DNA from: Chitinophagaceae bacterium
GTDB lineage: Bacteria > Bacteroidota > Bacteroidia > Chitinophagales > Chitinophagaceae
Reading direction: 5' to 3'
Assembly: GCA_004297075.1 (NCBI GenBank)
Contig: SCVK01000272.1
Coordinates: 1-37,773, forward strand
DNA: 37,773 nucleotides
Shown here: positions 2,393 to 18,614 of the stretch, in pieces
Position numbering within the stretch: the first letter of the stretch is position 1
Layout of the letters: every line of letters begins with the position of its first letter
The notes under the pieces: generated by a model
The model's input: the letters and a program-made list of their open reading frames with translations, nothing else
Databases searched by the model: none
Told to the model about the DNA's origin: nothing
Program-made: the position numbers and the translations under genes

Positions 2393-3214
2393 TTAGACAC
2401 CGCTGAATACGGTAAATCCACCGTCTACGCCCAGCTGCATTCCGGTAACAAAACGGGATGCATCACTCAGCAGGTAGATCAATGCCCCTACCAGTTCTTC
2501 CGGTTTACCAAAACGCTTGAAAGGGGTGTTTTTGATGACCAGGTTACCACGATCGGTAAAACTGCCGTCGCTGTTGGTTAACAAGGTTCTGTTCTGTTCG
2601 GTAAGAAAAAAACCAGGCATGATCGCGTTTACACGGATACTATCCCCAAAACGGTTGGCTACTTCAACAGCAAACCATTGGGTATAACAATCTACCGCTG
2701 CTTTACCCATACTGTATCCAAGCACTTTGGTCACCACCTGTTTGGAACTGACAGAAGATATATTCACAATACTACCGCCGCCGCTTTTTGCCATTACACT
2801 GCCAAATACCTGTGTAGGAATAATGGTACCCCATACATTCAGCACCATCGCTTTTTTCATCCCGTCTATATTCATGGAAAAGATATCAGCATCCGGCTGC
2901 AATACTCCTTCCGGCATATTACCGCCTGCAGCGTTTACCAACCCATCTATCCGGCCGCATTTCCCGATAATCATATCTCTCGCACGAACCAGATCTGCTT
3001 CTTCCAGTACATCTGCTACTACTGCCAGTGCCTTACCACCACCCGCTATGATTTCCTGTGCCCTTTGTTCTGCTACGGCTGCATTGCGTCCCAGGATAAC
3101 GGCTGTTCCACCTGCTGCTGCAATTCCTTTTACAAAAGCCCCGCCTAATATACCCGTTCCCCCTGTTACAACAATTACTTTCCCTTGTAGTGAAAACAGC
3201 TCATTCGATTCCAT
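2393..3214 (-). CDS. uxuB: SDR-type D-mannonate oxidoreductase (fructuronate reductase)
   Basis: A 273-aa short-chain dehydrogenase. It shows the nucleotide-binding TGGTGILG at residues 17-24, NAAG at 94-97, and the catalytic Ser (NISS, about 153-154), Tyr167 and Lys171. The C-terminal part TEQNRTLLTN...RGNLVIKNTPFKRFGKPEELVGALIYLLSDASRFVTG and the ending VDGGFTVFSGV match my memory of the SDR-type mannonate oxidoreductases (Bacillus subtilis UxuB/YjmF type). These interconvert D-fructuronate and D-mannonate with NAD(P)H. The neighbour uxaC supplies fructuronate, which strongly supports this role over the similar KduD (2-deoxy-gluconate dehydrogenase, about 250 aa). The start ATG at 3214 lies 90 nt after the stop of the plug gene; a LacI-like half-palindrome overlaps that stop. 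Confidence 0.85.
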   Translation of the reverse strand: MESNELFSLQGKVIVVTGGTGILGGAFVKGIAAAGGTAVILGRNAAVAEQRAQEIIAGGGKALAVVADVLEEADLVRARDMIIGKCGRIDGLVNAAGGNMPEGVLQPDADIFSMNIDGMKKAMVLNVWGTIIPTQVFGSVMAKSGGGSIVNISSVSSKQVVTKVLGYSMGKAAVDCYTQWFAVEVANRFGDSIRVNAIMPGFFLTEQNRTLLTNSDGSFTDRGNLVIKNTPFKRFGKPEELVGALIYLLSDASRFVTGMQLGVDGGFTVFSGV

Positions 3215-3283: not shown

Positions 3284-3308
3284 TTTACGAAAACGATGTA
3301 GCGTTTAC
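3284..3308. promoter_or_regulatory. Imperfect LacI-type operator before uxuB-uxaC
   Basis: The plus strand reads TTTACGAAAACG, then 6 nt, then CGTTTAC. GAAAACG and CGTTTaC pair as 7-nt arms with one mismatch. The 9-mer TACGAAAAC (3286-3294) also occurs in the strong palindromes before susC and lacI. The site overlaps the stop codon of the upstream plug gene and sits about 70-95 nt in front of uxuB. Binding is inferred, not shown. Confidence 0.45.
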
Positions 3309-3916
3309 TCCTGTATCATTTCCACTCTTTTAATATCCTTCAGCGCTACCCGTACTTCTTTTCTTTTTTTGATAAAGACCAAAACACTATCCTGTTGCTT
3401 TTGTATCACACCTTCCATGATCACACTATCATTATGGCCAAACACTTTCAGTGGTGTTTTATGTTCTATGAAATAAGTATAGGCCGATGCATTGTAACTG
3501 GATACAACGGCCTGTCTGCTTACGCCCTGTCCCTTTTTAGTGGTTATCAGGATTACCCCCGCTGCCCCCTGCGCACCATAAGCCGATGCGGATGCGGCAT
3601 CTTTCAGTACACTGATCCCGTCTACATCCTGTGGATTGATGGCACTGATATCGCCTGAATAAATTGCGCCATCTACTACAAAGAGCGGCGGCTTCTGGTT
3701 ATTAAAACTACCTATCCCGCGAACAACCACAGAACCACCTGTTTTGTCGTTACTCAATGTAACCTCCAATCCAGGTACATCCCGAAGCATCTCAAAAATA
3801 GACCTGTAAGTAGTGCCTTTGATGGTTTGCAGCGGTTTTAGCTGTGCCATGGCCTGTAAGGAAATGCAACACAGGCAAACCCAAACAATGCTTCCGGCAA
3901 AGGTTAGTGTTTTCAT
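3305..3916 (-). CDS. Stand-alone TonB-dependent receptor plug-domain protein
   Basis: A 203-aa exported protein. MKTLTFAGS... up to QAMA-Q (residues 1-24) looks like a signal peptide with AxA cleavage. Residues about 33-125 are a SusC-type plug: SIFEMLRDVPGLEV, VVRGIGSFNNQKPPLFVVDGA, INPQDVDGISVLKDAASASAYGAQGAAGVILITTKKG. The roughly 75 remaining residues contain no beta-barrel, and the next gene begins 90 nt later, so no barrel follows. The usual receptor has 900-1100 aa. The gene starts 4 nt after the stop of the preceding oxidoreductase, indicating translational coupling within the ThuA/Gfo operon. The ending KEVRVALKDIKRVEMIQE is not part of any domain I recognise. The function is unknown; it might be a periplasmic adaptor or decoy. 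Confidence 0.85.
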   Translation of the reverse strand: MKTLTFAGSIVWVCLCCISLQAMAQLKPLQTIKGTTYRSIFEMLRDVPGLEVTLSNDKTGGSVVVRGIGSFNNQKPPLFVVDGAIYSGDISAINPQDVDGISVLKDAASASAYGAQGAAGVILITTKKGQGVSRQAVVSSYNASAYTYFIEHKTPLKVFGHNDSVIMEGVIQKQQDSVLVFIKKRKEVRVALKDIKRVEMIQE

Positions 3917-5311: not shown

Positions 5312-6715
5312 TTAATCCAGTCCTTTTACCTCATACGGAAAACGGTGCGGCCTGTTCAGCATGCTGTTGGCTTCATCATCATTGATGAAACGCTCATTCA
5401 TCGGATCCCAGTTGATCTTACGTTTCACTTTCATGGAAATATGATGCAGCAAACAGGTAGAGCAGGAACGGTGTCCTACTTCTACTGGTGAAATAGGTTG
5501 CTGGCGTGTACGGATACAATCCAGCCAGTTGCCGTGCTGCTCGGCACTTTTATAGAGATTAATCTCATTCTCTCCTATCACAGATGTAATGATCTTACCA
5601 TCACTGGCAGTGAGTGCCTTTGTATTGGCATTACTCTGTACCGGATCACTGGCACTGGCACGGTAGTTACCACGGGTTACAAAAATCCACCCTTCGGTTC
5701 CTTCAAACTTGATGCCGTTGGGCAGTTCATTGCTCACGATCATTTTTACGCCGTTGGCATAGGTTCCCTGGGTTTCAAAAATGCCATGTACGTTCCACAA
5801 ACCTTTGGAAGGGAAAGTTACTTTATTACACACAATTTCTACCGGACCGGTATATTCTGTATCCATGCCCCAATGTGCACAGTCTATATGGTGTGCCCCC
5901 CATCCTGTGATCATACCGGCACCAAACTGCTCGCAACGCAACCAACCCGGACGATCATAGCCATTCTGCGGGTGTACCCTTTTCTCCGTATAATATACAT
6001 AAGGGGTTGATCCCAGCCAGGCATCATAATTCAAGGTAGAAGGAATGGGCATTTCAGGTTCTTCGTCACCTCCCGGATCGCCGGGCAGTCCGATATACAC
6101 ATTTTTCAATGTACCGATACGGCCATTACGAACCAGTTCGGCCGCATAACGGAACTGCACAGAAGAACGTTGCTGGCTGCCGATCTGCAGAATCCTTCCC
6201 GTGCGATGAACCGCATTACTCAAAGCCCGGCCTTCGGCAATGGTTAAGGAAGCGGGCTTCTGCAGGTACACATCCTTCCCTGCTTCCACCGCATGAATAC
6301 CGAGGTAAGCATGCGAATGATCAGGGGTACTGATCAGTACACCATCAATATCCTTATTCAGTAACATCTCGCGGTGATCGCTGTACATGGTAACCCCGTC
6401 GTATGTTTTGCCTGTTTTTTTGGTATAGTAATCATTCACATATTTTTTCCCTTCCGCAAGGCGTTTGCTGTCAACATCACAAACAGCCATGATCCGCGCG
6501 TGATCGTATTTCAGGGTTTCTGCCATATCATGATCACGGGAGATCCTTCCCACACCGATGGCTGCAATGTTCAGTTTATTACTGGGTGCATTTTTCCCGA
6601 ATACAGAAGCGGGAACAATGGTAGGAAATCCTGTCATGGCAAGAGAAGTGGCTACACCACCCTTAAAGGTTGTTTTCACAAAATCTCTGCGGTTAAATGG
6701 TTTTTTGGCTGACAT
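5312..6715 (-). CDS. Gfo/Idh/MocA family oxidoreductase with Tat signal
   Basis: Translation from the ATG at 6715 gives 467 aa. MSAKKPFNRRDFVKTTFKGG is a twin-arginine motif (NRRDF), predicting folded export with bound NAD(P). Longer in-frame starts add residues that overlap the upstream gene and look non-conserved. The Rossmann segment is LNIAAIGVGRISRDH; DVYLQKP replaces EKP with QKP but keeps the lysine; ITGWGAHHIDCAHWGM is the conserved His-containing active-site segment. It starts 4 nt after the ThuA-like gene stops. ThuA-like and Gfo/Idh/MocA proteins are commonly paired in sugar-oxidation systems, where carbohydrates pass through 3-keto forms; that role here is inferred. Confidence 0.9.
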   Translation of the reverse strand: MSAKKPFNRRDFVKTTFKGGVATSLAMTGFPTIVPASVFGKNAPSNKLNIAAIGVGRISRDHDMAETLKYDHARIMAVCDVDSKRLAEGKKYVNDYYTKKTGKTYDGVTMYSDHREMLLNKDIDGVLISTPDHSHAYLGIHAVEAGKDVYLQKPASLTIAEGRALSNAVHRTGRILQIGSQQRSSVQFRYAAELVRNGRIGTLKNVYIGLPGDPGGDEEPEMPIPSTLNYDAWLGSTPYVYYTEKRVHPQNGYDRPGWLRCEQFGAGMITGWGAHHIDCAHWGMDTEYTGPVEIVCNKVTFPSKGLWNVHGIFETQGTYANGVKMIVSNELPNGIKFEGTEGWIFVTRGNYRASASDPVQSNANTKALTASDGKIITSVIGENEINLYKSAEQHGNWLDCIRTRQQPISPVEVGHRSCSTCLLHHISMKVKRKINWDPMNERFINDDEANSMLNRPHRFPYEVKGLD

Positions 6716-6719
6716 AGTA

Positions 6720-7571
6720 TTAGTTTTTAAGAGGGTCATCTTTTGAAATAGCATGTGCTTTTGAATAATCCAGTCCCCTGTACCGGGTAGCAATATATCG
6801 GATACCCTGCAATAAATGGTTCTTGTATACGGGGTCCTGGTAACTTTCTTTGCTGTGGCCGAGTGTGGTTACCCAGATATTTCCTCCTTCAAACTGCTGG
6901 TACCAAACGGCAGGGTAATAATCCGCAAAAGAACCTTTGTTTTTATCGATCAGATCGGCCTGGTCTTTTTGCAGCGAGCTCAGTTCGTGCACCATCAGCA
7001 CTTTCATCCCGGGATAGAGTTCTTTTCCGAAATAACATTCATCATGCCGGTCCCAGGTAGCCGGTACATCTTTCATAGAAGGATGTGTGGGGTCGATATT
7101 CTTCAGCCGGAATACCTGTCCTTTGGCATGCCATGAAAAAGTTTCGCCCAGCATCTGTTTGAACCATTTCCAGTTGCGTTCCGTACCCGTAACAGAGTGT
7201 ACCCCCACAAAACCGCCACCGGCTTCGATATAGCGGCGGAAGGCCACCCGCTGTTCATCTGTATCAAATACATCATTATTGGTGCTCGTAAAAATGAGCA
7301 ACTGGTATTTCTGCAGGTTGGCTTCTGTAAATACAGATGCATCATCGGATACATCTACCGTAAAAGCGTTGGCGGCCCCCAGTTCTTTTACACAGGTTAT
7401 GGCAGAAGCAATATTATCGTGTACATACCCTTTGCCGTTTTTTGTATACACGAGCACCCGGCTGTTTTTCAGTTTACCATCTAACCGGGCTACCACTGGC
7501 AGTACGGTTAGTAACAGAAAAGCAAAAAGAAGACTTCGGAAAAAGAGGGTACACATCGGTTGTTTTACCAT
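6720..7571 (-). CDS. ThuA-like domain protein, exported
   Basis: A 283-aa protein from the ATG at 7571. Residues about 8-30 (CTLFFRSLLFAFLLLTVLPVVA) are a signal peptide or membrane anchor. The ThuA (glutamine-amidotransferase-like) fold is visible as NSRVLVYTKNGKGYVHDNIASA, YQLLIFTSTNNDVF, RYIEAGGGFVGVHSVTGTE, WFKQMLGETFSWHAKGQVF, HDECYFGKEL and NIWVTTLGHSKESY. ThuA-type proteins are associated with disaccharide oxidation and 3-keto-sugar handling; catalytic details are uncertain. It is the first gene of the minus-strand operon that faces susC across a 525-nt gap containing a LacI-type operator. A longer reading frame reaches back to 7736 but lacks any signal sequence and is unlikely to be translated. 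Confidence 0.88.
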   Translation of the reverse strand: MVKQPMCTLFFRSLLFAFLLLTVLPVVARLDGKLKNSRVLVYTKNGKGYVHDNIASAITCVKELGAANAFTVDVSDDASVFTEANLQKYQLLIFTSTNNDVFDTDEQRVAFRRYIEAGGGFVGVHSVTGTERNWKWFKQMLGETFSWHAKGQVFRLKNIDPTHPSMKDVPATWDRHDECYFGKELYPGMKVLMVHELSSLQKDQADLIDKNKGSFADYYPAVWYQQFEGGNIWVTTLGHSKESYQDPVYKNHLLQGIRYIATRYRGLDYSKAHAISKDDPLKN

Positions 7572-8096: not shown

Positions 8097-11000
8097 ATGA
8101 AGAAAAAAACGAATGCTTTCAAAGCAGGCCCGTTCACGTGCATACTATGCCTGGTATGTTTTGTGATATTTTCGGGATCCTTCGCAAATCCGGCAAAAGC
8201 CGGGAGGGTGGAACACAAGCTATCTGCCCTAAAACCACCTCCTGTTACTATTACTGGTAAAGTATCTGATGCCAAAAATGCTCCACTCGAAGGTGTGAGT
8301 GTGATGATTAAGGGTACTACAAGAGGAGTTACCACCAACGCCCAGGGATCATTCTCGATCCCCAATGTGCCGGAGAACAGTACACTGGTATTCAGTTATA
8401 CGGGCTATGGAACCAAAGAAGTAGCCGTAAAAGGCAAAAACAGTATCAACATTTCACTCGCAGAAGAAGTGTCTGGACTGAATGATGTAGTAGTAGTTGG
8501 ATATGGTACACGTACCAAAAAAGACCTTACAGGTTCAGTTGTGCAGGTGAAAGCCACACAACTTGAAAATGAAAATCCACGTTCCGTACAGGATATGCTT
8601 CGTGGAAATGCACCTGGCCTGGATGTGGGTTTTGACCCAAGTACCAAGGGTGCCAGTGCCAGTTTACAGGTGAGGGGGAAAGGCACATTGACTGCCAGCT
8701 CTGACCCGCTGATAGTGCTTGACGGAGTAATTTATCCCGGCACCATGGCCGATATCAACCCGAACGATATTGCTACTATTGATATCCTGAAAGATGCCAG
8801 CTCTGCTGCCGTATTTGGTGCCAGATCTGCCAATGGAGTTATCCTGATCTCTACTAAAAGAGGAAAAATCGGCAAACCGGTTATTACAGTTAACAGCAAT
8901 TTTGGTATCAATAAAGTGGTAAACCAACCGCATCTGTTAACCGGACCTGAAATCCTGGATTTCCGGGAAGCAGCAGAATGGGCTAAAACCAATTTTGATT
9001 CAACTTCCAAACCCGGCATAAAATATAAGTTCCTGAATCCGGCCAAATTGCCTTCTAGTTTTACTGTAGCACAATGGCTGGCACTCGATGGGTCAAACGG
9101 TCTTGACCCTACCAATGTCTGGCTCAACCGCAACGAGTGGAAACCCATAGAACAGACCAATATCAAAGCAGGGAATTACCTGAACTGGGAAGACCTGATT
9201 TATAATAAAAATGCCCTGCAGAATGATCATACTGTAAGTATCGCGCAGAGAAGGGATGATTATAACTATTATTTCTCTCTCGGATATCTTACCAATGAGG
9301 GCATCACGGTTGGTGACAAGTATAAAACCTTCCGTACCCGTTTTAATTTAGAAGCCAAAGCTGCTGACTTTTTAACCGTAGGTATTAATTTCCAGTATTC
9401 CAACCGGGATGAAAGTAGTGTACCTGTCAGGTTTGGAGATATTGCCTCTACTCCGCCATGGGGATCTTTCTATCAGGCTGACGGTGTAACACTCAGACAG
9501 AGCTCCAATGATGACCCGGGTTCCAATACCCATCCCTTTCTGGATCAGGCATACACCAACCGTTTATACAAGTACGACGATTTCTTTGCCTCGATTTTTG
9601 CGAAAGGGAAATTGCCATGGGGGTTTTCTTACCAGGTTAACTTTTCACCCCGCTACGATGTGTTGCGCGAATACCAGCATATCTCTTCCAAAAAGCCGGA
9701 TGTGGCTTCCAGAAAAGGTATCGTAAACAGAAGAAATCAGACTGTTTATTCCTGGCAGTGGGATAACATTATCCGCTGGAATAAACAATTCGGTAAACAT
9801 ACATTTGAAGCTACCTTCCTCTTCAATGCGGAAAAATTCCAGTCATGGAATACCACTATCCAGGCAGAAAATTTTGCACCCAATGACAACCTGGGATACA
9901 ATGCCATACAGGCAGGTACGCTGGCCCCTATTGTTTCCAGTGACGATCAGTACGAAACCGGCGATGCCCTGATGGGACGTATCAACTACAACTATAACCA
10001 ACGCTATTATTTCACTTTTACGGCAAGACGGGATGGTTATTCCGCATTCGGACAGTCTAATCCAAGAGCCACCTTCCCTTCTGCCGCATTCTCATGGGCC
10101 ATTAGTGAAGAGCGGTTCATGAAGAAAACAGCGAATTGGCTTGATTATGCCAAAGTGAGAATTTCATATGGTGAAAACGGGAACAGACAAATCGGTCGTT
10201 ATGCTGCCCTGTCAAACCTTTCCTCAGGCACCTATAATTTTGTAACATCAGGTGGAGCTGTGTATAATACCTCTTATGTACAGGCAAACAACCTGTCGAA
10301 CCCTAATTTGAAATGGGAAAGAAACAGTTCTGTGAATTTTGGGATTGACTTTTCCCTTTTTAAAGGTATAGTTAGTGGTACATTTGACTTGTACAACAGA
10401 ACTACCAAAGATCTGCTCGTTAACCGCTCTTTACCTACTGTTACAGGATTCAGTTCTGTATTGGTAAATCTGGGTGAGGTACAAAACAAAGGATTTGAAT
10501 TCTCTGTTACTACCCAGAACATGCGGAAGAAAAATATCAACTGGAGCACCACATTCGGAATCTGGAGCAACCAGAATAAAATCATCCATTTATACGGCGC
10601 CACTCCGGATTATGATGCAACCGGAAAACAAATAGGCAGTTCCGAGAAAGATGATATCAATAACGGTTGGTTTATCGGCCATGCGATTTCTGAGATTTAT
10701 GATTACAAAACAATAGGTGTATGGCAAACCGCTGATGCTGCCCTGGCCAAATCATTTGGCTTTACCCCCGGCGATTTCAGATTGAATGATAAAAATGGTG
10801 ATGGAAAATATACCGTAGCAGACAGAGAATTTGTAGGCAATTCTGCACCCAAATTTTCCTGGAACATGAGAAATGAATTTAAACTTTATAAGAATTTTGA
10901 TTTCTCATTTACCCTATACGCGAAAATGGGGCAGATCACCAGATTCAATGAAGCTACCAACGGAGAAAGAAATCAGGGACTGGTGTTTTATGATCGTGTA

Positions 11001-11330
11001 AACTTTTATGAAACTCCGTACTGGACTCCTTCCAATCCTACAAATGAATGGGGCAAGTTATATGGCCAGAGAGGTGGCGGTATTACCTGGAACCATTATA
11101 AAAAATCTTCCTTTATCAGGTTAAGTAATATTAGTCTTGCCTATACCATTCCCGGAGAAATTACCAAAAAATGGAAAATCGATGCCCTCAAAGTTTATTT
11201 CAATATCGTAAACGCGAAAGTATTCTCTAACTGGGATTATTTTGATCCGGAATATCATGGTGCAAATGGAACGACTAATCAAACCCCAACACCTTTGACT
11301 TATAATTTTGGATTAAACCTTACTTTATAA
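8097..11330 (+). CDS. SusC-type TonB-dependent outer-membrane glycan transporter
   Basis: A 1077-aa receptor from the ATG at 8097; a longer frame to 8034 would displace the signal peptide. Residues about 12-35 are the signal peptide. Residues about 50-115 form a carboxypeptidase-regulatory-like domain (VTITGKVSDAKNAPLEGVSV), followed by the SusC-type segment DVVVVGYGT (130-138) and the plug at about 140-256 (VLDGVIYPGTMADINPNDIATIDILKDASSAAVFGARSANGVILISTKRG). The rest is a 22-strand barrel ending in the terminal strand LTYNFGLNLTL. It imports oligosaccharides with the partner SusD, which begins 23 nt later. The upstream palindrome suggests LacI control. The glycan cannot be told from the receptor; neighbours point to a uronic-acid-containing polymer. 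Confidence 0.97.
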   Translation: MKKKTNAFKAGPFTCILCLVCFVIFSGSFANPAKAGRVEHKLSALKPPPVTITGKVSDAKNAPLEGVSVMIKGTTRGVTTNAQGSFSIPNVPENSTLVFSYTGYGTKEVAVKGKNSINISLAEEVSGLNDVVVVGYGTRTKKDLTGSVVQVKATQLENENPRSVQDMLRGNAPGLDVGFDPSTKGASASLQVRGKGTLTASSDPLIVLDGVIYPGTMADINPNDIATIDILKDASSAAVFGARSANGVILISTKRGKIGKPVITVNSNFGINKVVNQPHLLTGPEILDFREAAEWAKTNFDSTSKPGIKYKFLNPAKLPSSFTVAQWLALDGSNGLDPTNVWLNRNEWKPIEQTNIKAGNYLNWEDLIYNKNALQNDHTVSIAQRRDDYNYYFSLGYLTNEGITVGDKYKTFRTRFNLEAKAADFLTVGINFQYSNRDESSVPVRFGDIASTPPWGSFYQADGVTLRQSSNDDPGSNTHPFLDQAYTNRLYKYDDFFASIFAKGKLPWGFSYQVNFSPRYDVLREYQHISSKKPDVASRKGIVNRRNQTVYSWQWDNIIRWNKQFGKHTFEATFLFNAEKFQSWNTTIQAENFAPNDNLGYNAIQAGTLAPIVSSDDQYETGDALMGRINYNYNQRYYFTFTARRDGYSAFGQSNPRATFPSAAFSWAISEERFMKKTANWLDYAKVRISYGENGNRQIGRYAALSNLSSGTYNFVTSGGAVYNTSYVQANNLSNPNLKWERNSSVNFGIDFSLFKGIVSGTFDLYNRTTKDLLVNRSLPTVTGFSSVLVNLGEVQNKGFEFSVTTQNMRKKNINWSTTFGIWSNQNKIIHLYGATPDYDATGKQIGSSEKDDINNGWFIGHAISEIYDYKTIGVWQTADAALAKSFGFTPGDFRLNDKNGDGKYTVADREFVGNSAPKFSWNMRNEFKLYKNFDFSFTLYAKMGQITRFNEATNGERNQGLVFYDRVNFYETPYWTPSNPTNEWGKLYGQRGGGITWNHYKKSSFIRLSNISLAYTIPGEITKKWKIDALKVYFNIVNAKVFSNWDYFDPEYHGANGTTNQTPTPLTYNFGLNLTL

Positions 11331-11353: not shown

Positions 11354-13195
11354 ATGAAAAATATTAATAAAATAATCCGTTCATCAGCCATCATGCTACT
11401 TGGCGTGATGATCTTAGAGAGTTGTAAGAAGGATTGGTTGGAACCAAAACCATTATCCATCAATTCTCCTGAAAATACTTTGGTAGATGCCATTGGTTTT
11501 AATGCTGCCTTAAATGCCTGTGCCCGTAACCTTCGCGACGAATGGTATGGCGATGGTGCCCCCATCATCACTGAAACCATCTTTTCAGAAGTGGCAGTAG
11601 AAGGAACAGATGACAAAACCGGTCCGGCGCAGAATATGGACCTGCAGATCAAACCGGACGCACAATTGAACAGTGGCGATTTCAATAAAATCGGTTGGTA
11701 TTGGAACCAGGAGTGGGTGGGCATTCGCCTAGCCAATACCATTGTTTCCCGTTTGCCGGCAGCTACTGCTATACCGGAAGCGACCAGAAATATCATTTTG
11801 GGCAAAGCCTATTTTTACAGGGCTTATGATTACTACCGGTTAACCAATCAGTTTGGAGATGTTCCCTGTCCATTAAAAGAATTAACAGAAGCTAAAACGG
11901 ATTATGCTTCTGTTAAAAGAGAAGTGATTCTTCAGCGAATGAAGTCAGACCTTGACTTTGCTGTTCAACATGTACCCTGGACTGCTGATAAAGGTGATGT
12001 GAACAAGGGCGCCGTGTACCATTTACTGGCAAAGATCAATCTTTCACTTGGGTTGTTTGATGAAGCCATTACAGCCGCTTCGGCCGTAATAAATAGTGGC
12101 ACTTATAAACTGATGACAAACCGTTTTGGTATTGACGCAGGTAATGCCGCAAAAAATGTAACCTGGGATTTACACCGTCCGGAAAATAAAGCTGCTGCAG
12201 CCAATACAGAAGTTTTATTCCTGGTTACAGAACGTATAGGTGTTCCTAATAACTTTGCCGGCGGTATACAGACCATGCGTAATTGTGTTCCCGGAATTTC
12301 CATTGCCGGTATCGTTACACCCAATGGCGGTGTAGGCATTTCTCCGCTCGCCGGAGTTGAATTTGATAATATGCAATGGTACGGAAGGGGTATTGGCCGA
12401 TGCCGCTCAACATCTTATCACTACAAGGATATTTGGGATGATGTAAACGACCTAAGGCATGATTCTACCTCTGGTAACTGGATGTACATGGAAAACCTGC
12501 GCTACAGTAATCCGGCTTTAAAAGGGGTGGATCCTTATTATGGTCAGAGGCTGCAGCTATTCAGTTCTACAGGCAAACAATTATGTAATGGTAAAGACAC
12601 TTTACGCAGATGGTTCCCCTGGCCTCACTACAAACTATATGTTCCTGATATTGAAAACACACCTATGAGAGGTGGTCATACAGACTGGTATGTCATGCGT
12701 TTGGCGGAAACATTCCTGATCCGAGCTGAAGCCTATGTATGGAAAGGTCAGAATGATCTCGCTATGGCAGATATAAATGCGGTAAGAACAAGGGCTAAAT
12801 GCGCCCCTTACACCAATGCTGCCAGTATGAATATTGGCACCGTACTGGATGAAAGAGCCAGGGAATTATATTATGAAGAAGGACGCAAAACAGAGTTAAC
12901 GAGGATTGCATTTTTGTTTGCTAAAACAGGCAAATCATATAATGGCAAAACCTATACGTTAGCCAACTTCTCCACTTCCAATTTTATGATTGATCGCATT
13001 TTAGAAAAAAATGTTTTTTATGCACAGAATTTCATCACCAACCACCAGGATATGATGAAGATAAGCCCCTACCATGTATTATGGCCTATCCCCCAGTCTG
13101 CTATCCAGGGTAATACCGATGGACGAATTAATCAAAATCTTGGCTATTCGGGTGCTGAATTAAACGTTGCCCCACTGGATAAGATTCCTGAATGA
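11354..13195 (+). CDS. SusD/RagB family glycan-binding lipoprotein
   Basis: A 613-aa surface lipoprotein. The signal MKNINKIIRSSAIMLLGVMI ends in LESC with the acylated Cys24, followed by KKDWLEPKP, typical of SusD proteins. TPR-like helices are seen in GKAYFYRAYDYYRLTNQFGDVPCP and KGAVYHLLAKINLSLGLFDEAITAASAVINSGTYKL. The C-terminal RagB/SusD part includes WYVMRLAETFLIRAEAYVWKGQNDLAMADINAVRTRAKC and ELYYEEGRKTELTRIAF, with the closing LWPIPQSAIQGN...INQNLGY. It caps the SusC pore and binds the glycan. It is co-transcribed with susC and ends at a strong hairpin terminator. Confidence 0.97.
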   Translation: MKNINKIIRSSAIMLLGVMILESCKKDWLEPKPLSINSPENTLVDAIGFNAALNACARNLRDEWYGDGAPIITETIFSEVAVEGTDDKTGPAQNMDLQIKPDAQLNSGDFNKIGWYWNQEWVGIRLANTIVSRLPAATAIPEATRNIILGKAYFYRAYDYYRLTNQFGDVPCPLKELTEAKTDYASVKREVILQRMKSDLDFAVQHVPWTADKGDVNKGAVYHLLAKINLSLGLFDEAITAASAVINSGTYKLMTNRFGIDAGNAAKNVTWDLHRPENKAAAANTEVLFLVTERIGVPNNFAGGIQTMRNCVPGISIAGIVTPNGGVGISPLAGVEFDNMQWYGRGIGRCRSTSYHYKDIWDDVNDLRHDSTSGNWMYMENLRYSNPALKGVDPYYGQRLQLFSSTGKQLCNGKDTLRRWFPWPHYKLYVPDIENTPMRGGHTDWYVMRLAETFLIRAEAYVWKGQNDLAMADINAVRTRAKCAPYTNAASMNIGTVLDERARELYYEEGRKTELTRIAFLFAKTGKSYNGKTYTLANFSTSNFMIDRILEKNVFYAQNFITNHQDMMKISPYHVLWPIPQSAIQGNTDGRINQNLGYSGAELNVAPLDKIPE

Positions 13196-13292: not shown

Positions 13293-14504
13293 ATGTGGCA
13301 GATACAAAAAACAATCGGTTGCTCCCTGTTATTGGCTCTTCTATCAGGCGCACTGCCTGCACAACAGGCACAGAAAGTTCAACCGGATTTGCTGACAGTA
13401 ATTGACTCGGCCCTGCAAAAAGCAGTATTGCAATACAAATACCTGGGCACACAACTGCCGGCCGATGTATTACCGAAAACCTATTATCCCCTCACTAAAA
13501 AATTCGAGACCAGCAAATCCAGCTGGTGGACAAGTGGTTTTTATCCCGGATCCTTATTGTATCTCTACGAATATGCAAAGGATCCTGCTTTGCTGGCGGA
13601 AGAAAAAAGAATAGAGAAAATCATTGAAAAAGAACAGTTCAACAAAGGTACCCACGACCTGGGTTTTATGATGTTCTGCAGTTTTGGCGCCGCTAACCGT
13701 TTGGCCCCATCCAAAGAATATGAACAGATCCTGCTGAACAGCGCCAAATCTTTGTCTACCCGCTTCAACCCTACCGCAGGCGTGATCAAATCATGGGACC
13801 ATGGTGACTGGAAATACCCGGTGATCATCGATAATATGATGAACCTGGAACTGTTATTCTGGGCCACGCAATTCAGCGGCGACTCTTCTTTTTATAAGAT
13901 CGCTGTTACGCATGCCAATAACACCATAAAAAATCATTACCGCCCCAATAATAGTTCCTGGCATGTGGTGGACTATGATATCAGTGATGGACATGTGATC
14001 TCAAAAAAAACACACCAGGGGTACGCGGATAACTCTGCATGGGCCCGGGGACAAGCATGGGGTTTGTATGGGTATGTAGTGATGTATCGTTGTACAAAAG
14101 ATCCTACGTATTTGGCACATGCAAAAAAAATCGCTGCTTTTATCATGCAGCATCCCACCACTCCGGAAGATAAAATTCCTTTCTGGGATTATGACACACC
14201 TGAGATCCCGGCTACTTATCGCGATGCATCGGCAGCCGCTATTACGGCTTCTGCCTTGCTGGAACTAACGAAATATGTTGATCCAACATCCGGTAATTCG
14301 TATACCGGATTTGCGGAGAAAGTGATCCGTTCATTATCATCGCCTACCTATACAGCCCTATATAGACAAAATGGCGGGTTTATTCTGAAACACAGCACCG
14401 GACATTTACCGGGCAATTCAGAGGTAGATGTGCCACTTACCTATGCCGACTATTATTATATCGAAGCCATGTTAAGATACAAAGCCCTGAAAGCGAAAAA
14501 ATAG
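13293..14504 (+). CDS. GH88 unsaturated glucuronyl hydrolase
   Basis: A 403-aa exported enzyme (signal peptide to about residue 23, GALPAQQ). The alpha/alpha-barrel motifs of GH88 are clear: THDLGFMMFCSFG with Asp122, IIDNMMNLELLFWA with Asp180, GYADNSAWARGQAWGLYGY, PFWDYDTPE and DASAAAITASALLEL. Asp122 and Asp180 are 58 residues apart, like the catalytic pair of Bacillus UGL. The family removes the 4,5-unsaturated uronic acid that a polysaccharide lyase leaves on oligosaccharides, in the periplasm. No lyase is in the window. The unsaturated product normally goes through KduI/KduD rather than UxaC/UxuB, so part of the pathway must be elsewhere. It sits between the susD terminator and lacI. 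Confidence 0.93.
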   Translation: MWQIQKTIGCSLLLALLSGALPAQQAQKVQPDLLTVIDSALQKAVLQYKYLGTQLPADVLPKTYYPLTKKFETSKSSWWTSGFYPGSLLYLYEYAKDPALLAEEKRIEKIIEKEQFNKGTHDLGFMMFCSFGAANRLAPSKEYEQILLNSAKSLSTRFNPTAGVIKSWDHGDWKYPVIIDNMMNLELLFWATQFSGDSSFYKIAVTHANNTIKNHYRPNNSSWHVVDYDISDGHVISKKTHQGYADNSAWARGQAWGLYGYVVMYRCTKDPTYLAHAKKIAAFIMQHPTTPEDKIPFWDYDTPEIPATYRDASAAAITASALLELTKYVDPTSGNSYTGFAEKVIRSLSSPTYTALYRQNGGFILKHSTGHLPGNSEVDVPLTYADYYYIEAMLRYKALKAKK

Positions 14505-15709: not shown

Positions 15710-17125
15710 CTACCATGTATACGTAGCTACGGAATTGGCGGGTATGATCAGATCGGCTGTCTGGTTTTGCCAGCGGATGGTAATATTCCGGATAGCCGTT
15801 TCTTTGTTCAGCACAATACATACATATTTGCCCGCGGGCGTTTTAAACGCCACATTCGGCAATCCCGCTACCATATTGGATCCTATCCGTACCGAACCAG
15901 GTCTTGCAAATCTGGCTGCATGTGCAATGATATAATAAGCCGGGTTGCGTATTACTTTCTTTTTACCCTGATCAATGGTTACAGCTGCCAGACAACTGGT
16001 ACATCCTCCCCTCTCGGTAAAGGGTTTGTAGAACTCATCTGATGCCAGGTTCCATTCCAGTACCGTTTTGGCCCAGTTGCGGGTAGCACCTATGATCAGG
16101 TTCTCTACATGCCAGCTGATATCACCCAGGTAATTACCCGGTGCCCCTACCCATTGCTCGGTGAAGTAGATATTTTTATCAGGATGTTTATCATGCACCA
16201 GCGATAAGGCATCGATCGTTCCCCCATAAAGATGAAAGGCAGAACCATCGATGTATTTTTTTGCTTCCGGGTCATTCAGCACCGTGATCGGGTAATCGGG
16301 CCTGTCTGCGTTATGATCGTAGATGATGATTTTAGTGCGTAGTTTGGCGGCAGCAAAAGCAGGTCCGAGATGATCGCGAACAAACTCGGCCTGTTCATTG
16401 GCCAGCATCTGTAAACTGGGATTGTTACCGGGATGCAGTGGTTCGTTCTGCACTGTTACCGCATCTATCCTGACTCCCTCTTTACGCATCGCTTCTATAT
16501 ACTTAACAAAATAACGGGCATATACAGGGTAAGCAGACTTCAGCAGGTTACCACCGCGGGTATCATTGTTGTTTTTCATCCACACCGGTGGCGACCACGG
16601 CGACCCCATGATTTTGATATATGGATTGATCTGCAGAATCTCTTTTAAAACCGGGAGCAGGTATTTTTTATCATAACCGAGATCAAACCGTTTTAGTTCA
16701 GGATCCTTCTCGCCTTCGCGGAGGTCATTGTACGAAAACACTTTTTCATCCAGGTCAGATGCACCGATACTGATGCGGAGATAACTGGTGCCGATATGGT
16801 TCTTTTCTGTACCAAATAATTCCTGCAACAAAGCCTGGCGTTCCTCCTTCTTCATTTTCATCAGGTTCAATGCACTACCTCCCGTTAAGGAGAAGCCAAA
16901 ACCATCTATCGATTGATAACGTTCCGTATCATCAATATCGATCACGGTTTGCCTGGCTGAATCCCTGCTTTTGAAATAAACAGGCGTAACCTGTTTCCTG
17001 AAAAAAATATGCTGTGTCGGGCTGGTCAACCATGTCTGTATGGGTTTCCCTTTCTGCGCAATTACAGTTGATACCAGTAAAAAAGAAACAACGAATATTC
17101 TTACACGAACAGGATATATATACAT
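15710..17125 (-). CDS. GH30 family glycoside hydrolase, exported
   Basis: A 471-aa enzyme with signal peptide (residues 1-23, ending VIAQ). The (beta/alpha)8 barrel shows GFGFSLTGGSALNLM, YLRISIGASDLDE and MGSPWSPPVWMK. The acid/base Glu228 lies in VTVQNEPLHPGNN and the nucleophile Glu323 in IYFTEQWVGAPG. A small beta-domain follows, ending TADLIIPANSVATYTW. The layout is close to GH30 subfamilies 1 and 3 (beta-glucosidase/xylosidase or endo-beta-1,6-glucanase) rather than the glucuronoxylanase subfamily 8, but I cannot fix the subfamily. It follows the Gfo/Idh/MocA gene by 31 nt and ends 1 nt from the end of lacI. Confidence 0.93.
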   Translation of the reverse strand: MYIYPVRVRIFVVSFLLVSTVIAQKGKPIQTWLTSPTQHIFFRKQVTPVYFKSRDSARQTVIDIDDTERYQSIDGFGFSLTGGSALNLMKMKKEERQALLQELFGTEKNHIGTSYLRISIGASDLDEKVFSYNDLREGEKDPELKRFDLGYDKKYLLPVLKEILQINPYIKIMGSPWSPPVWMKNNNDTRGGNLLKSAYPVYARYFVKYIEAMRKEGVRIDAVTVQNEPLHPGNNPSLQMLANEQAEFVRDHLGPAFAAAKLRTKIIIYDHNADRPDYPITVLNDPEAKKYIDGSAFHLYGGTIDALSLVHDKHPDKNIYFTEQWVGAPGNYLGDISWHVENLIIGATRNWAKTVLEWNLASDEFYKPFTERGGCTSCLAAVTIDQGKKKVIRNPAYYIIAHAARFARPGSVRIGSNMVAGLPNVAFKTPAGKYVCIVLNKETAIRNITIRWQNQTADLIIPANSVATYTW

Positions 17126-17155
17126 GATGATTTTGCTGATGGATGTATTATAAAA

Positions 17156-18547
17156 CTATGCTTTTGCTTTGATTACTTTCATCGCTACCGGATCCCAGTG
17201 GATGGCCTCGTTTTTCTCAACGCTGGTATTACATAAAATGGCGGGGCCTGCGGCTCTTAGTCCAAAAGAAACATCTTCCAATACTGTTTTACCGGTTCTC
17301 ACAGATTCAAAGAAATTAATCATGTGATCCAGCCTGCTATCATACCCTTTAGGCGATTCAAAAATGATCTCCTCTCCTTCTTTTGCTTTCCTGTCTTCTG
17401 CACTGTATCTGGCATTATATTCCACCAGTAATGATTGCTGCATGGCTTTGGGGAAACTCTCCATCGAATCATACCCACCAATACCCGGTGCCACCGGTCT
17501 TTTAAAATGTTTGACGCGGATACTGTTCGATCTCACTTCGATCACCCCTTCGGTACCAATGAACCGATTACCCGCTCCACCGCCTGCACCATCTGCCAGG
17601 TTAACACGCGTAAAAAACTGGAAGCCATTGTGTTCAGCAGTTTTCGGATACCGCATGATACCGGTTACAATATCATAGGCATCCCTGCCATCCTTCCAGT
17701 AATTCAAAGCACCTGCTGCATAAATGGTATCCGGACCATAAGAACCGGTTACCGTATGTAAACCCGTAAAATTATGTACAAACAGATCACCTGCTACACC
17801 GGTACCATAGGCTTTGTAATTGCGCCACCTGAAAAAATGAACGGGATCGAAGGCGATCTTGGGCGCATCGCCCAGAAACCTGTCCCAATCAATGGTTTTC
17901 GGACTTGCATCAGACGGAATAGTATATTGCCAGGCACCGTTGGCTGAGTTGCGGTCGTTATAAGCTTCGGCATACGCCAGCTCACCAATGATACCCTGTT
18001 TGTAATATTTCTGTGCCTCAAGAAATAAAACCGAACTGGCCGACTGGCTTCCTACCTGCAACACTTTGCCACTGGCTTTTTGTGCGGCCACCACTGCCAG
18101 TCCTTCTTCTACATGATGCACCATCGGTTTTTCGCAGTACACATGTTTGCCTGCTTTCAGTGCATCGATCGTGATATGATCGTGCCAGTGATCGCAGGTA
18201 CAAACCAATACGGCATCGATATCTTTTCGTGAAAGAATTTCTTTGTAATCGCGGGTAACAAACAGCTCATTGCCCCATTTTTCCCGGGCCCTGTCCAGCC
18301 TGCCCTGGTAGAGATCGCAAACTGCAGCCAGTTCCACACCCGGCACTTTAAGGGCTGTTTCAGTATCGTAATGACCAATGATACCGGCACCGATCAAAGC
18401 GATACGCACTTTGTCATTGGCGCTTACTTTTACGGAGGATAATAACTGCTGTACTTTTGCGGGATCTGCCATTGCGGGAAGTCCGGCCAGTAATAATGAA
18501 CCGGAAGCACCCAGTGTATGCAGGAATTTTCTGCGGGAAGTTGCCAT
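17156..18547 (-). CDS. Gfo/Idh/MocA family oxidoreductase with Tat signal
   Basis: A 463-aa protein from the ATG at 18547 (MATSRRKFLHTLGASGSLLLAG), with the twin-arginine SRRKF. The Rossmann motif VRIALIGAGIIGHYD is complete, the catalytic EKP motif is intact in GKHVYCEKPMVHH, and LQVGSQSASS is conserved. FVHNFTGLHTVTGSYGP aligns with the family's conserved His region. It is upstream of and co-oriented with GH30 (31 nt), and 67 nt downstream of a glycine-rich lipoprotein. Family members oxidise or reduce sugars with a bound nicotinamide cofactor; the specific sugar is unknown. Confidence 0.92.
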   Translation of the reverse strand: MATSRRKFLHTLGASGSLLLAGLPAMADPAKVQQLLSSVKVSANDKVRIALIGAGIIGHYDTETALKVPGVELAAVCDLYQGRLDRAREKWGNELFVTRDYKEILSRKDIDAVLVCTCDHWHDHITIDALKAGKHVYCEKPMVHHVEEGLAVVAAQKASGKVLQVGSQSASSVLFLEAQKYYKQGIIGELAYAEAYNDRNSANGAWQYTIPSDASPKTIDWDRFLGDAPKIAFDPVHFFRWRNYKAYGTGVAGDLFVHNFTGLHTVTGSYGPDTIYAAGALNYWKDGRDAYDIVTGIMRYPKTAEHNGFQFFTRVNLADGAGGGAGNRFIGTEGVIEVRSNSIRVKHFKRPVAPGIGGYDSMESFPKAMQQSLLVEYNARYSAEDRKAKEGEEIIFESPKGYDSRLDHMINFFESVRTGKTVLEDVSFGLRAAGPAILCNTSVEKNEAIHWDPVAMKVIKAKA

Positions 18548-18614
18548 CGTTAGAGGTTTTGATAGCAACAATTTACAAAAAACAAGTGAATTACGGCTAA
18601 GGCCGGAAGAAGGA

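Follow-up and report, generated by a model that had tools for sequence, protein, structure and literature searches.

Our analysis of a 37,773-nucleotide stretch of DNA from a Chitinophagaceae bacterium (contig SCVK01000272.1; hereafter the window) identified an intact gene encoding an apparently exported protein that combines the core of a SusC-type plug domain with a distinct C-terminal tail of predicted Sm/Hfq-type fold, and that has no barrel. Relatives of this protein, here called plug-Sm, were found in two genera, and across both of them its constant partner is an exported ThuA/oxidoreductase module rather than SusC. We tentatively propose that plug-Sm may be a non-catalytic periplasmic adaptor or scaffold of the exported ThuA/GFO/OxRedC module in a uronate-sugar locus, probably oligomeric through its Sm-fold domain; this is the reading that we favor, although we would put it somewhat short of an even chance. 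The conserved frame, the selection, the plug homology and the gene neighborhood were computed, and the oligomerization, the binding partner and the role in a sugar pathway are what we infer.

The plug-Sm gene (3305-3916, reverse strand) has a frame that is open over 203 amino acids, in agreement with the original prediction, and its assignment draws on this frame, on Pfam and on the family alignment. Pfam recognized only a Plug domain in the protein (PF07715, match at 3.5e-14; 53.6 bits against a cut-off of 23.9), located in residues 30-121 (3554-3829, reverse strand), and found neither an outer-membrane beta-barrel nor the carboxypeptidase-D-like N-terminal extension that the neighboring SusC has. 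Among the NCBIfam models, the protein passed the SusC signature TIGR04057 (48.8 bits against a cut-off of 46.2) and stayed far under the cut-off of the whole-receptor model TIGR04056 (105 against 368 bits). The N-terminus is hydrophobic and ends in LQAMAQ (a small residue followed by Q), and hydrophobicity together with a permissive motif check predicts a Sec signal peptide without a lipobox in residues 1-25 (3842-3916, reverse strand). The same kind of permissive check gave a signal-like N-terminus in 22/22 aligned family members, the window's included, and a lipobox in 0/22; these signal-like sequences suggest that plug-Sm is apparently an exported, periplasmic protein, and no membrane anchor or signaling domain was seen in it. 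Residues 139-203 (3308-3502, reverse strand) form the tail, predicted by AlphaFold2, Foldseek and VIA-align to be a small beta-barrel of the Sm/Hfq type with a helix and five strands. The original prediction of a signal peptide, a complete SusC-like plug and a 75-residue tail without a barrel therefore holds for the parts that it named and for the missing barrel, but the plug is not complete, and the distinct tail is about 65 residues long and predicted as a compact folded domain.

The plug of plug-Sm matches only positions 15-107 of the PF07715 profile, whereas that of the neighboring SusC (8097-11330) matches positions 2-107 of 107. In this SusC, a NDVVVVGYG stretch and the first plug strand precede the alignable part, and plug-Sm starts after both; by these alignments, its plug is a core that lacks the first strand and the TonB box. 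Four TonB-box patterns were scanned against the stretch between signal and core, which spans only 11-18 residues in plug-Sm members, and none of them was found in any of the 22 family members, the window's included. The loosest pattern recovers 56/63 SusC controls, in the 70 residues ahead of the plug core, and the strict one only 6/63, so that the looser patterns carry the result. Within the core, first-genus members keep the glycine of the IRG motif in 22/22 cases and that of VDG in 21/22, together with the LKDA..YG signature, while in the second genus the glycine is replaced in IRG in three of four proteins and in VDG in all four, both glycines being invariant in 63/63 SusC plugs.

In the AlphaFold2 model of the whole protein, mean pLDDT over residues 141-200, taken in blocks of ten, is 81-92 and the confidence in the plug is moderate; since the pTM of this model is only 0.44, the arrangement of the domains is not readable from it. 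The tail alone was predicted with a pLDDT of 89.3 and a pTM of 0.73, the fold predictions being built on 21-22 related sequences. For the whole model, the top Foldseek matches were plugs of SusC and other receptors, followed by Hfq chains; for the tail alone, Foldseek listed a designed small barrel (7ur7) and then Hfq chains (E 0.003-0.035 over these matches; E 0.004-0.035 and TM 0.64-0.79 for Hfq), with no match for the tail at E 0.001 and with 7ur7 about as good as Hfq. When the Foldseek matches were re-examined by VIA-align, the tail superposed on Caulobacter Hfq over 61 residues (Z 10.5; rmsd 1.8), and all 50 matches listed were Hfq entries, the last at Z 9.2; RimP and LSm structures were absent among these 50. 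A viral structure library gave no match to the tail at E <= 0.001 and only weak ones to small proteins. The models thus predict a Sm/Hfq-type small beta-barrel for the tail, and this is a statement about fold only.

Sequence kinship between the tail and Hfq is not supported by our profile and alignment comparisons. The Hfq profile PF17209 had no match in 21 tails nor in the four second-genus tails (HMMER; Pfam, NCBIfam), a PDB sequence search with the tail returned nothing significant for Hfq kinship, and the YKHAI (Sm2) stretch of Hfq is absent from plug-Sm tails as read from the alignments. The hhalign score of the tail against Hfq was 8.7, compared with a mean of 10.5 for column shuffles (n=40); as the Hfq profile held three sequences and RimP-C against Hfq was also non-significant, this comparison has little power. 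The C-terminal domain of RimP, a cytoplasmic ribosome factor, is also an Sm-like barrel; its profile (PF17384) matched 5/21 tails weakly (best 0.0016; 19.1 bits, under the cut-off of 26.3), and Sm_like matched one of the 21, again weakly. The hhalign score of the tail against RimP-C (13.4) was no higher than scores reached by shuffling (mean 10.2, maximum 16.1), and one of the 12 rows of the RimP set (L189) is in the wrong frame, which adds noise to the RimP comparison only. Hfq itself was found above cut-off in 0/119 genomes of the order, including the window's own (82.75% complete), and the same search was positive in 5/14 control genomes, E. coli among them. Because these 119 genomes show no Hfq above cut-off, the YKHAI stretch is absent and sequence kinship is unsupported, a role of the tail in RNA binding is unlikely, the more so if the protein is exported. 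A precedent for caution is a protein formerly named Hfq that, according to an extract of PMC11607428, proved not to be Hfq. It should also be noted that three proteins of about 180 amino acids with signal-like starts, from another family of the order (L185, L186 and L188, in genomes G245, G263 and G215), weakly match the Hfq profile at their starts (17.5-19.3 bits; cut-off 27), and perhaps contain further exported Sm-like domains.

A search with plug-Sm at E <= 1e-24 matched 25 of 147 genomes of the window's genus, of which 23 carry plug-tail genes and two (G016 and G144) SusC receptor frames. The gene is intact in 21 of these 23 genomes, is interrupted by two stops in G036 and is cut by a contig end in G149; as G090 carries two copies, the intact genomes yield 22 sequences, the window's included, that align from end to end, in plug and tail alike. 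Relatives with the same length and tail, which the original prediction proposed to look for, are therefore present in other genomes. The two genes of G090 form a tandem pair (L165:8757-10037, reverse strand) separated by 45 nt and identical at only 94/196 aligned residues. Two TAA codons break the plug-Sm gene of G036 (L047, about 777-1340), which lies beside uninterrupted frames for ThuA and OxRedC. A profile of the tail matched 8/394 genomes of the family (four of the window's genus and four of a second genus) and 2/345 of the phylum, both of the window's genus; it also matched 16/298 genomes of the order at E <= 0.05, only the best five (E <= 5e-11) being convincing. As far as these sequence searches reach, the plug-tail architecture is confined to two genera in the sampled genomes. 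Within the best 80 loci of at least 592 stretches, a plug-tail relative with 64% identity was also seen in an uncultured Bacteroidetes MAG (L069).

In an IQ-TREE phylogeny, the 26 distinct plug cores of plug-tail proteins (21 intact ones of the window's genus, the open part of the interrupted copy and four of the second genus) form one clade with a UFBoot value of 95. A cruder FastTree tree did not group the orphan plugs, its largest pure orphan clade having seven members; neither tree included identical cores or cores that matched fewer than 85 profile positions, the contig-cut copy being one of the latter. A recent split of plug-Sm from the adjacent SusC was considered and is not supported, as the nearest SusC plugs are about 1.06 substitutions per site away from the window's plug and the 26 cores form a single clade. 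One of these nearest plugs belongs to a SusC that adjoins ThuA in a species lacking plug-Sm. The full receptor at the window's locus is a separate, divergent gene.

Another barrel-less plug was observed in a rumen Bacteroidales MAG, where a frame of 145 amino acids (L091:4391-4828, forward strand) encodes a lipobox-like signal (LLLAAGC) and a SusC-type plug core. Like plug-Sm, its product is apparently exported, lacks a barrel and shows no TonB box by eye; unlike plug-Sm, it has a lipobox-like signal and no tail and falls outside the plug-tail clade. On this comparison, it is a second, separate kind of barrel-less plug. A search with this protein at E <= 1e-22 matched 3/247 phylum genomes; one match is the window gene and the other two are receptor frames of full length, so close relatives of it look rare at this threshold.

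Comparison of the window gene with its closest relative (78% identical) gave dN/dS values of 0.081 for the plug and 0.079 for the tail, and other measurable pairs gave 0.04-0.09 and 0.08-0.12, respectively, with synonymous sites near saturation in several pairs (dS > 1 or not estimable). In two very close pairs, plug and tail have hardly any amino acid changes or none at all, and the signal peptide is much looser than either domain. Across 231 pairs, the median pN/pS was 0.34 for the plug and 0.36 for the tail, and never exceeded 0.58. Judged by these substitution ratios, plug-Sm is under purifying selection in both domains, which rules out a pseudogene and bears out the selection that the original prediction had argued for.

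The neighborhood of plug-Sm is that of a sugar-utilization locus. Upstream of it on the reverse strand are genes for an exported oxidoreductase (OxRedC, PF16490; 3921-5273), a GFO/IDH/MocA oxidoreductase whose frame has an uncertain N-terminal extension and, by eye, a twin-arginine-like leader (5312-6793), and a ThuA-domain protein (PF06283; 6720-7580) with a signal-like N-terminus by eye; downstream are a short-chain dehydrogenase (SDR; 2393-3214) and the glucuronate isomerase UxaC (PF02614; 964-2367), all five typed by Pfam. The stop of OxRedC and the ATG of plug-Sm that follows it are 4 nt apart, a distance that makes the proposed translational coupling to the exported oxidoreductase plausible. 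Divergent from this module, on the forward strand, lie a full SusC receptor (8097-11330) with N-terminal extension, TonB box (by eye), plug and barrel, a SusD-like protein typed by Pfam (11354-13195) and a GH88-like protein of the unsaturated uronyl hydrolase family (13293-14504). At 15710-18571, the locus continues with a glycosidase of family GH30 and another GFO/IDH/MocA oxidoreductase. UxaC at the locus, the nearby GH88-like protein and UxuA in the second genus point to uronates, in line with the uronate operon initially proposed. ThuA has been linked to keto-sugar chemistry. One second-genus plug-Sm locus also encodes a 3-keto-disaccharide hydrolase (PF06439; L209:12171-13562, forward strand), which hints at an oxidative glycoside route; an extract of PMC9007349 connects hydrolases of this kind with the oxidation of sugars in the periplasm.

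The usual order in the window's genus is SusD-SusC divergent from ThuA-(GFO)-OxRedC-plug-Sm-SDR-UxaC, and SusCD stands beside ThuA in all 15 plug-Sm loci of this genus whose stretch extends past ThuA. OxRedC is missing at the locus in five genomes, three of which have plug-Sm directly after ThuA (gap of 0-1 nt) and two after GFO (46 nt). In 20 of 23 plug-Sm genes, the distance to the gene upstream, be it OxRedC or ThuA, lies between -4 and +10 nt. All four loci of the second genus have the order ThuA-(GFO)-OxRedC-plug-Sm-UxuA-SDR; SusCD is beside ThuA in one of them, and in the other three an MFS transporter takes its place, with a LacI gene close by (the MFS protein was typed by Pfam in L209, and the copies in L210 and L211 are 44-45% identical).

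Co-occurrence was scored over the 147 genomes with cut-offs set after the lists had been seen (ThuA orthologues at E <= 1e-120; OxRedC orthologues at >= 67% identity). ThuA orthologues occur in 29 genomes, and plug-Sm is present in 22 of these and in 1/118 others; the only plug-Sm genome without one is G090, which is 53% complete. OxRedC orthologues occur in 21 genomes, 18 of them with plug-Sm. Fisher's test gives very small p-values for both associations (4e-19 for ThuA and 7e-16 for OxRedC), relatedness not being controlled. All 17 genomes in which ThuA and OxRedC both have strict orthologues carry plug-Sm; when all matches are counted (ThuA in 31 genomes, OxRedC in 27), both occur in 20 genomes, of which 18 have plug-Sm, and the other two (G010 and G064) carry more distant copies of ThuA and OxRedC. 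Three genomes (G074, G105 and G137) have OxRedC-SDR-UxaC with neither a ThuA match nor plug-Sm. Because G010, G064 and seven genomes with a ThuA orthologue do without plug-Sm, the oxidoreductase module can work in its absence.

Three explanations are disfavored by these results. That plug-Sm is a decaying SusC remnant, as the original prediction had allowed, could draw on the broken copy in G036 and on the ThuA-bearing genomes without plug-Sm, but we consider it extremely improbable, and the selection test refutes it: the gene is intact with the same tail in 21 genomes of the window's genus and four of the second, dN/dS is near 0.08, the plug-tail cores form one clade across both genera and the tail is predicted as a folded domain. 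An RNA-binding Hfq homologue, either exported or with a misread start and acting on RNA, would suit the predicted fold, yet it is highly improbable given the missing Pfam/NCBIfam matches in the scanned tails, the hhalign score under the shuffled mean (with the three-sequence Hfq profile), the absent YKHAI stretch and the signal-like N-terminus in all 22 members, which speaks against a cytoplasmic location. Binding of TonB, another early suggestion, is not supported, as no TonB box was found in any of the 22 members. According to an extract of PMC7782687, deletion or mutation of the TonB box (VDEVVV) of Bt1763 causes levan growth defects like those of a SusD deletion; as such mutants are defective and plug-Sm has no TonB box, it is unlikely that TonB drives plug-Sm. 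That plug-Sm acts as a decoy for TonB, or competes with SusC for it, is likewise very unlikely on the contrast with the SusC controls (0/22 against 56/63 with the loosest pattern), even though plug-Sm derives from a domain of TonB-dependent receptors.

The remaining readings turn on what the plug would bind. In the adaptor reading, the Sm-fold domain would make plug-Sm oligomeric, as Sm domains typically form rings, and the plug domains would keep the oxidoreductase enzymes or the sugar that they act on close to the outer membrane. A periplasmic adaptor was also among the roles suggested in the original prediction. The co-occurrence with ThuA and OxRedC, the retention of ThuA where SusCD varies, the tight gap to the upstream gene whether OxRedC or ThuA, and the lack of plug-Sm in the three genomes with OxRedC-SDR-UxaC and no ThuA match all argue for such an adaptor; against it stand the ThuA-bearing genomes without plug-Sm, the 15/15 loci with adjacent SusCD, which keep SusC as a possible partner, and a tail fold that is predicted, with 7ur7 a match about as good as Hfq and a low whole-protein pTM. 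The suggestion that plug-Sm could bind a SusC receptor is weakened rather than lost, as SusCD adjoins every window-genus locus that reaches it, but an MFS transporter replaces it in three of the four second-genus loci, where SusC-invariant glycines of the plug are also replaced. Binding to SusC could take the form of a spare stopper, a free plug that would enter the SusC barrel from the periplasm after the barrel's own plug has been ejected and so limit leakage, the Sm-fold tail keeping the plug oligomeric or anchored. According to an extract of PMC7782687, closed SusCD states show no plug density in the barrel, so that a barrel without its plug does occur, in vitro at least, and because of this displacement the trans-acting stopper is the rival that most deserves a test. 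The window genus retains the IRG and VDG glycines, the LKDA..YG signature and the adjacent SusCD, which speaks for a stopper, but the second genus departs from this in both glycines and, at three of its four loci, in its transporter, and the first plug strand is missing; we regard a stopper as rather unlikely. We also think it unlikely that plug-Sm is a sensor or regulator. In that case, the plug core would bind a periplasmic sugar or signaling partner and report on the status of the substrate, and the Sm-fold domain would serve to bind partners. SusC plugs can contact glycan, as H169 and E170 of Bt1763 do according to an extract of PMC7782687, and the locus contains a LacI-type regulator gene, but LacI is cytoplasmic, plug-Sm shows no membrane anchor or signaling domain, and no anti-sigma or hybrid sensor gene is among the 16 window genes typed by Pfam.

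A bolder form of these ideas, which we consider doubtful, is that plug-Sm forms a secreted ring of Hfq fold. Such a ring would present a number of barrel-less SusC plugs in the periplasm and would serve the sugar importers of the outer membrane either as a multivalent adaptor or as a stopper that acts in trans. If true, an Sm-type ring would operate outside the cytoplasm, in an order without Hfq above cut-off among the sampled genomes. Plug domains are usually viewed as components of TonB-dependent receptors, whereas Sm/Hfq domains count as rings that bind RNA in the cytoplasm. An exported protein under selection that fuses the two, and that has neither a TonB box nor a barrel nor the RNA-binding motif of Hfq, would be a case in which both modules have been put to use beyond their familiar settings. 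Plug-Sm would also offer a genetic handle on the organization of periplasmic oxidoreductases beside SusCD importers and on the question of whether plugs can act in trans. The titles and abstract openings of the best-ranked papers listed contain no description of such a protein, which does not by itself show that it is absent from print.

Compared with known systems, the plug core of plug-Sm is clearly homologous to that of the SusC/RagA TonB-dependent transporters (PF07715, TIGR04056/TIGR04057), from which plug-Sm differs in having no barrel, N-terminal extension, TonB box or first plug strand. With Hfq and Sm proteins, the predicted tail would share an N-terminal helix, five strands and a nearly full-length superposition; it differs from Hfq in having neither the YKHAI stretch nor sequence support, in its predicted export and in its fusion to a plug. 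The C-terminal domain of RimP shows a weak HMM likeness to plug-Sm tails, below the cut-off; it differs in that RimP is a ribosome factor of the cytoplasm, and its hhalign score does not rise above those of the shuffled controls.
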